Shown one piece after another: positions 28,225 through 28,647 of a stretch of DNA of 58,077 nucleotides (position 1 is the first letter of the stretch; each line of letters begins with the position of its first letter). The DNA is from Hyphomicrobiales bacterium. Its GTDB lineage: Bacteria; Pseudomonadota; Alphaproteobacteria; Rhizobiales; Aestuariivirgaceae. Under the pieces are notes generated by a model. It did no database searches. It worked only from the letters and a program-made list of their open reading frames with translations, and was not told where the DNA came from. The position numbers and the translations under genes are program-made. The stretch covers positions 1-58,077 of the forward strand of contig JALSGQ010000010.1 of NCBI GenBank assembly GCA_026982665.1, read 5' to 3'.

Positions 28225-28647
28225 ATGCAGGCCGTGCATTCCGTCGACGTGCTGCACGCTGACGACTACGAGCTTGGGCGACGGTTCGTGAGAGATTTGC
28301 TGAAGGCATGGGGATACAGCGTGCACACGGTGAAAAATGGTTCCCAGGCGGTGGCGTGGATGCAGGAAATCCTTGCCGAAAGCGGGAATGCGGATGGCCT
28401 CAGGCCGCGCTGCCTGCTGCTCAACTACTTCATGCCGGAGATGACCGGGCTTGATGCACTGCGCATCATCCGCCGGCTGGAGCGTGAACATGGCCTTTCG
28501 CCAACGCCAGTGATCGCCTACAGCAGCTACCTGACAGACGATGAAAGGCAGGGTTTCGAAGAGCTGGGGGTGCAGGCAATCCTGCATACCCCATTCGGGC
28601 TCCAGGAGCTCCAGGACACCCTGCAGGCCTGCCTGAAGGAGCGGTGA
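28225..28647 (+). CDS. Receiver-like protein lacking the phospho-acceptor Asp
   Basis: 140 residues, a stand-alone CheY-like fold. The acidic pair is kept (VLHADDYE), but the phospho-acceptor position is Asn67 ([16 protein letters not shown] codon at 28423-28425). The conserved Lys is replaced by Thr122 (ILHTPFG), and the Thr/Ser switch region reads AYSSYL. It therefore cannot be phosphorylated in the normal way and is probably a pseudo-receiver acting by protein contact. It lies 87 bases after the hybrid kinase on the same strand. The open frame is intact with no sign of decay, which argues for a retained function. Confidence 0.8.

Follow-up and report, generated by a model that had tools for sequence, protein, structure and literature searches.

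Can a receiver that has lost the residues of phosphotransfer, and that stands as its own gene beside a hybrid histidine kinase, still work as a protein, and by what means? The question is raised by a 140-residue protein (P0001) encoded at 28225..28647 on the forward strand of the window, by which we mean the whole analysed stretch of 58,077 nucleotides. The original prediction held it to be a pseudo-receiver that works by binding, perhaps as a competitor or anti-adaptor. Stand-alone pseudo-receivers that act by partner binding are already known; one estimate puts pseudo-receivers at about 6% of bacterial receivers, and describes their workings as largely unknown (PMC12632262).

A receiver fold without acceptor aspartate or lysine

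Frame, codon use and ribosome-binding site support 28225-28647 as a real gene. The ribosome-binding site AAGGGAGG (28212..28219, forward strand), read directly from the sequence, stands 5 bases ahead of the ATG; GC by codon position is 0.67/0.39/0.76, and a codon-use score, with twelve neighbouring genes as training set, is 0.335 per codon here and 0.001 in the best of the other five frames. Over the full gene the score is 0.285, below that of each of the twelve neighbours (0.302 to 0.735), and the GC content of 0.608 is the lowest of the thirteen genes compared.

The frame is intact, and residues 9-133 match Pfam Response_reg (PF00072; E 2e-13, 50.8 bits against a cut-off of 30.2), the sole Pfam domain in the protein. 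Alignment with the receiver of the neighbouring kinase, by which active-site positions were assigned, places N67 at the site of the acceptor Asp and T122 (in ILHTPF) at that of the Lys, with the acidic pair D13/D14, S100 at the Thr/Ser site and MPEMTG at 70-75 all retained. The position three residues before the Lys site (K-3), usually aromatic and used in Y-T coupling, is Ile119 in P0001. An AlphaFold2 model built on a 10-row alignment (mean pLDDT 91.6, pTM 0.86) has the (beta-alpha)5 architecture of five alternating strands and helices, in which D13/D14 follow beta1, N67 ends beta3, S100 ends beta4 and T122 follows beta5. Among solved folds the GacS receiver D1 ranks first (E 8e-10), narrowly ahead of CheY and others; matches of P0001 to TAL effectors among PDB sequences were taken to be artefacts, no stretch passing alone. 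The residue-level description in the original prediction was thus borne out by the ORF, Pfam and the model.

P0001 is a pseudo-receiver in the sense that its active site lacks at least one of the five residues D, D, D, T and K, and an aspartate-less receiver in that it matches PF00072 with no Asp at the acceptor position. It resembles the aspartate-less and pseudo-receivers already surveyed (Maule 2015, Bourret 2025) in its Response_reg match and replaced acceptor, Asn being the second commonest replacement (16%; PMC4395418). It differs from them in being stand-alone, in being found here in one genus only, in having one homologue that keeps the Asp, and in keeping both acidic residues, the second of which most pseudo-receivers lose (PMC12632262).

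We consider it very improbable that P0001 can still be phosphorylated, be it on an Asp formed from Asn67 by deamidation or on some other residue. In favour, it retains the Mg-binding residues D13/D14 as well as S100, and a receiver with Asn at the acceptor site is cited as reverting rapidly to Asp (PMC4395418). Against this, both the Lys (T122) and the K-3 aromatic residue are absent, and Asn67 is followed by Tyr, not Gly. Asn followed by Tyr rather than Gly deamidates slowly.

Between a hybrid kinase and trxB

The gene upstream (26089..28137, forward strand; the start is that of the original prediction, and the open frame begins at 25777) encodes a BarA/GacS-type hybrid histidine kinase with HisKA (about 26479-26670), HATPase (about 26827-27159) and C-terminal receiver (about 27697-28062) domains, the last retaining Asp and Lys. 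NCBIfam aligns one long stretch of this kinase with BarA, well under the model cut-off. The segment between HATPase and receiver (27160-27696) has no above-cut-off Pfam match and carries an LLKPxRR motif that also occurs in relatives; we take it to resemble a degenerate internal receiver, as in BarA. On the minus strand 5' of the kinase lie a ChvG-like gene, which matches its NCBIfam model below cut-off, and beside it what is presumably a ChvI-like gene.

The pseudo-receiver gene lies on the strand of the kinase, 87 bp 3' of it, and its product is only 29% identical to that kinase's receiver. A perfect 10-bp inverted repeat (28149-28158 and 28201-28210) spans most of the gap, ending just 5' of the ribosome-binding site. 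No attenuator or terminator was called there, the fold having a z of -0.65 and 58 of 200 shuffles folding at least as well. Rfam and tRNA scans returned one tRNA-Leu, far off.

On the other side lies trxB (thioredoxin-disulfide reductase; 28727..29749, forward strand), preceded by a promoter-like element, TTGCAA-N16-ATAGCT (28657..28684, forward strand), directly after the pseudo-receiver stop; the sigma-70 scan made no call at this element. The pattern TTGC-N16-22-TAGCT, chosen after viewing the alignment and applied to 28 of the 33 genomes in which trxB was matched, occurs within 150 bases 5' of trxB in 8 of 11 genomes of the genus, always as 28 bases (TTGC-N19-TAGCT), and in none of 17 other relatives; it occurs once in the window, and letter shuffles give 0.09 matches per set. 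Two genomes of the genus (G007 and G004) have the matching stretch directly after the kinase gene. The pseudo-receiver gene is therefore likely to sit between the kinase gene and a trxB promoter, as judged from this sequence pattern. Because this conserved promoter-like element follows the pseudo-receiver gene immediately, the link to trxB looks incidental; trxB, whose element is kept in relatives without the pseudo-receiver, was set aside as the main context and probably lies outside the system.

Adjacency to the hybrid kinase, to which the original prediction gave weight, is true of the window but proved weak evidence. In five genomes of the genus (G004, G005, G007, G009 and G010) the kinase orthologue directly precedes trxB with no receiver gene between, and the two other stand-alone copies that we found (G004 and G008) lie right after lepA, not after a kinase; no kinase gene was noticed in the stretch read around them. 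This arrangement bears on a rival and rather unlikely reading, in which P0001 is a pseudo-receiver with a partner other than the neighbouring kinase or its relay, serving as a scaffold or adaptor whose activity is set by abundance. Pseudo-receivers with non-kinase partners, such as FrzS with SgmX, are listed in PMC12632262. The sequences closest to P0001 argue the other way, being receivers of this very hybrid kinase family.

Distribution, constraint and origin

At E 1e-8, P0001 finds a match in 36 of 60 genomes including its own, and 40 of the 45 matches sit in open frames of at least 414 residues, those read being hybrid-kinase-like. The best matches beyond its own genome are kinase receivers (G003, 1.6e-18; G026, 3e-17; G008, 9e-17; G011, 2e-16), with the stand-alone copy of G008 below them (3.3e-16) and that of G004 much lower (5e-11). 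When the G008 copy is the query across the 11 genus genomes, P0001 comes second only to the G004 copy (E 4e-16) and above all kinase receivers (best 3e-11), so that best matches between P0001 and the G008 copy are not reciprocal. A profile search built from the three homologues gives them the top scores by construction, and the independent evidence is the single-sequence G008 query, although the ranking obtained with P0001 as query points against it.

Stand-alone receivers of this kind were found in 3 of the 11 genus genomes (that of the window, G000, and G004 and G008) and not in the other eight, all of which retain the kinase. A scan of genome contigs gave eight loci: the copies in G008 and G004, plus six at 26-29% identity that keep Asp and Lys; two plasmid records match at E 1e-8, with 27 and 33% identity. 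Both residues are likewise kept in all six of the additional receivers read from the family and order, whose frames are short or unclear; this reading covers part of the short-frame matches of the profile search. In one 285-residue frame from a family member (G026:C143:23823-24179, L185), a receiver that keeps Asp and Lys is followed by a C-terminal part resembling an HPt domain by eye. Gene order 3' of lepA is much shuffled and differs between most genus genomes; G004 and G008 share the pseudo-receiver there. G001 and G002 share what we take to be a carbonic-anhydrase-like ORF after lepA.

The three copies differ in what they have lost. At the Lys position the window has Thr and both G008 and G004 have Val; the acceptor codon is AAC (Asn) in the window and in G008 and GAC (Asp) in G004; and the acidic pair, DD in the window, is ND in the other two. 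All 11 genus kinase receivers keep Asp and Lys. Thus, with Lys lost in three of three and Asp replaced by Asn in two, loss of the Lys is common to the copies and loss of the Asp is not. The G004 copy, keeping its Asp, would not count as aspartate-less, and the PF00072 scores of the G008 and G004 proteins (26.2 and 20.5) fall under the 30.2 cut-off. Sequencing error is an unlikely source of the lost residues, since AAC recurs in a separate MAG (G008) and the Lys is absent throughout.

Pairwise NG86 dN/dS is 0.38 for G008-G004 (bootstrap 0.24-0.59), 0.38 for G008-window and 0.34 for G004-window, with a value of 1 or above in no more than one of 1000 bootstraps. Synonymous divergence among the three is 0.7 to 2.3, the values to the window protein (1.9, 2.3) being near saturation. 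One pair of kinase receivers (G003-G008) gives dN 0.15, dS 1.19 and dN/dS of about 0.13. On this comparison, purifying selection on the stand-alone proteins is probably weaker, yet real.

An alternative that we regard as unlikely is that the gene encodes a spare receiver in decay, its constraint relaxed and its function slight or absent. It would suit the patchy presence (3 of 11 genomes), the long branches in the tree, the dN/dS (about 0.38, against about 0.13 for that single pair of kinase receivers from the genus), the lowest codon score of 13 genes and the unconserved neighbourhood. It sits less well with three intact frames at dS 0.7 to 2.3, bootstraps that reach 1 at most once in 1000, a good ribosome-binding site, and the lack of a broken copy after lepA in the other nine genomes, where a search of up to about 1,600 bases per genome (only about 250 for G005) found no convincing remnant (best tblastn E 0.05). 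The Lys loss in all three copies, together with dN/dS of 0.34-0.38, makes P0001 look like an old pseudo-receiver rather than a case of recent decay. To the question whether Asn and Thr are fixed, the answer is that the Lys is lost throughout (as Thr, Val and Val) and that Asn is not fixed, given the Asp of G004. None of the three homologues carries both a normal Asp and a normal Lys, the pattern named beforehand as a sign of recent decay. Retention of the pseudo-receiver as a protein is supported by the intact frame, the dN/dS and the shared Lys loss, and P0001 is a real stand-alone pseudo-receiver, apparently old and moderately constrained.

As to where it came from, two trees cluster the three stand-alone proteins (supports 92/93 and 88/93) and nest them within the genus's kinase receivers (81/93 and 83/95), all supports lying below the 95/80 mark and the branches being long. 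BarA/GacS-type kinase receivers are the closest sequences to P0001 and supply its first-ranked fold, and P0001 differs from them in lying outside any kinase and in having lost Asp and Lys. The trio and the kinase receivers share a long alpha2 region that DivK does not have. A recent tandem duplication of the receiver in the neighbouring kinase is disfavoured: holding P0001 together with the kinase receivers of G000 and G007 gives AU p 0.02, a value that is indicative because the choice of group followed sight of a first tree. DivK is, like P0001, a stand-alone alphaproteobacterial receiver, and the tree alone would allow the trio to group with it (AU p 0.27). We rejected orthology to DivK on position and residues: the DivK-like gene of G000 lies elsewhere (C72), before a pleD-like ORF, and keeps Asp and Lys, and the alpha2 region of P0001 is longer. 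With modest support from these trees, we favour an old origin among the receivers of the neighbouring BarA/GacS-type kinase family.

A tree of trxB and lepA unites six inner species (G000, G007, G004, G003, G006 and G008; 100/98), pairing G000 with G007 (94/95) and joining the other four weakly (80/84). The simplest story would be that the gene arose once, ahead of the split of these six, was lost from G007, G003 and possibly G006, whose genome is 84% complete, and moved at least once. The gene may have been transferred between species.

A putative role in binding a kinase or its relay

The reading we prefer, at a probability of about 0.43, is that P0001 is a freed receiver of this kinase family, now aspartate-less, that acts as an antikinase or decoy on a kinase or HPt protein to which it binds. 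It would have begun as the C-terminal receiver of the genus's BarA/GacS-type hybrid kinase family, have become its own gene before the six species split, and then have been lost or moved in several of them. With neither Asp, Lys nor the aromatic residue of Y-T coupling, P0001 is short of what ordinary receiver chemistry requires. It most likely binds a histidine kinase transmitter domain, or the HPt protein, independently of phosphorylation, much as Osp acts on CckA and FixT on FixL. The parental hybrid kinase would be the first candidate target. The fold, tree grouping, Lys loss, dN/dS and position between the kinase and the trxB element speak for this reading; adjacency to a kinase in only one of three homologues, a gene not found in 8 of 11 genomes, non-reciprocal best matches, long branches, 29% identity to the neighbouring receiver and the DivK grouping at p 0.27 speak against it.

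A stand-alone HPt-like ORF at G000:C83:6614-6871 (L179; Pfam Hpt, E 7e-11) is a possible partner of the kinase. With E up to 0.1 allowed, Pfam Hpt has no other match in the genome, ChpT-type proteins lying outside this search. Thus, transfer from kinase to HPt is a plausible relay for the hybrid kinase, and either protein could be the target.

Precedents come from other Alphaproteobacteria. Osp of Rhodobacter (Cereibacter) sphaeroides is, like P0001, a single-domain receiver without the Lys and patchy in part of its range; it is described as active unphosphorylated, as inhibiting CckA at an equimolar ratio and as still working in its D51N form (PMC9430884). Compared by description only, the two are reversed in their other residues, Osp keeping the Asp and lacking the acidic pair, so that P0001 does not show the Osp-type pattern (Asp kept, acidic pair and Lys absent), and the target of Osp is CckA (PMC9430884). 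FixT of Sinorhizobium meliloti is a small receiver-like antikinase that inhibits FixL, with phosphorylation reported as not observed (PMC9430884). P0001 is not a recognizable FixT homologue: BLASTP, run to E 10, did not match it to the FixT-like ORF next to fixJ on pSymA (named by position), which by reading keeps LTKP and lacks the acidic pair, whereas P0001 has the acidic pair and lacks the Lys. Binding competition is also mentioned as a hypothesis for pseudo-receivers in general (PMC12632262).

Taken by analogy with these proteins, binding, as in the original prediction, is the best reading at hand for P0001, with a putative partner. A bolder proposal, which we hold to be doubtful, is that an escaped receiver, its catalytic residues lost, serves one alphaproteobacterial genus as a fast-evolving, portable, dominant-negative decoy on its parental phosphorelay. 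In other respects the find is ordinary; a stand-alone pseudo-receiver together with its likely parental kinase would make it possible to test cleanly whether receiver domains, once freed, turn into inhibitors of kinases.
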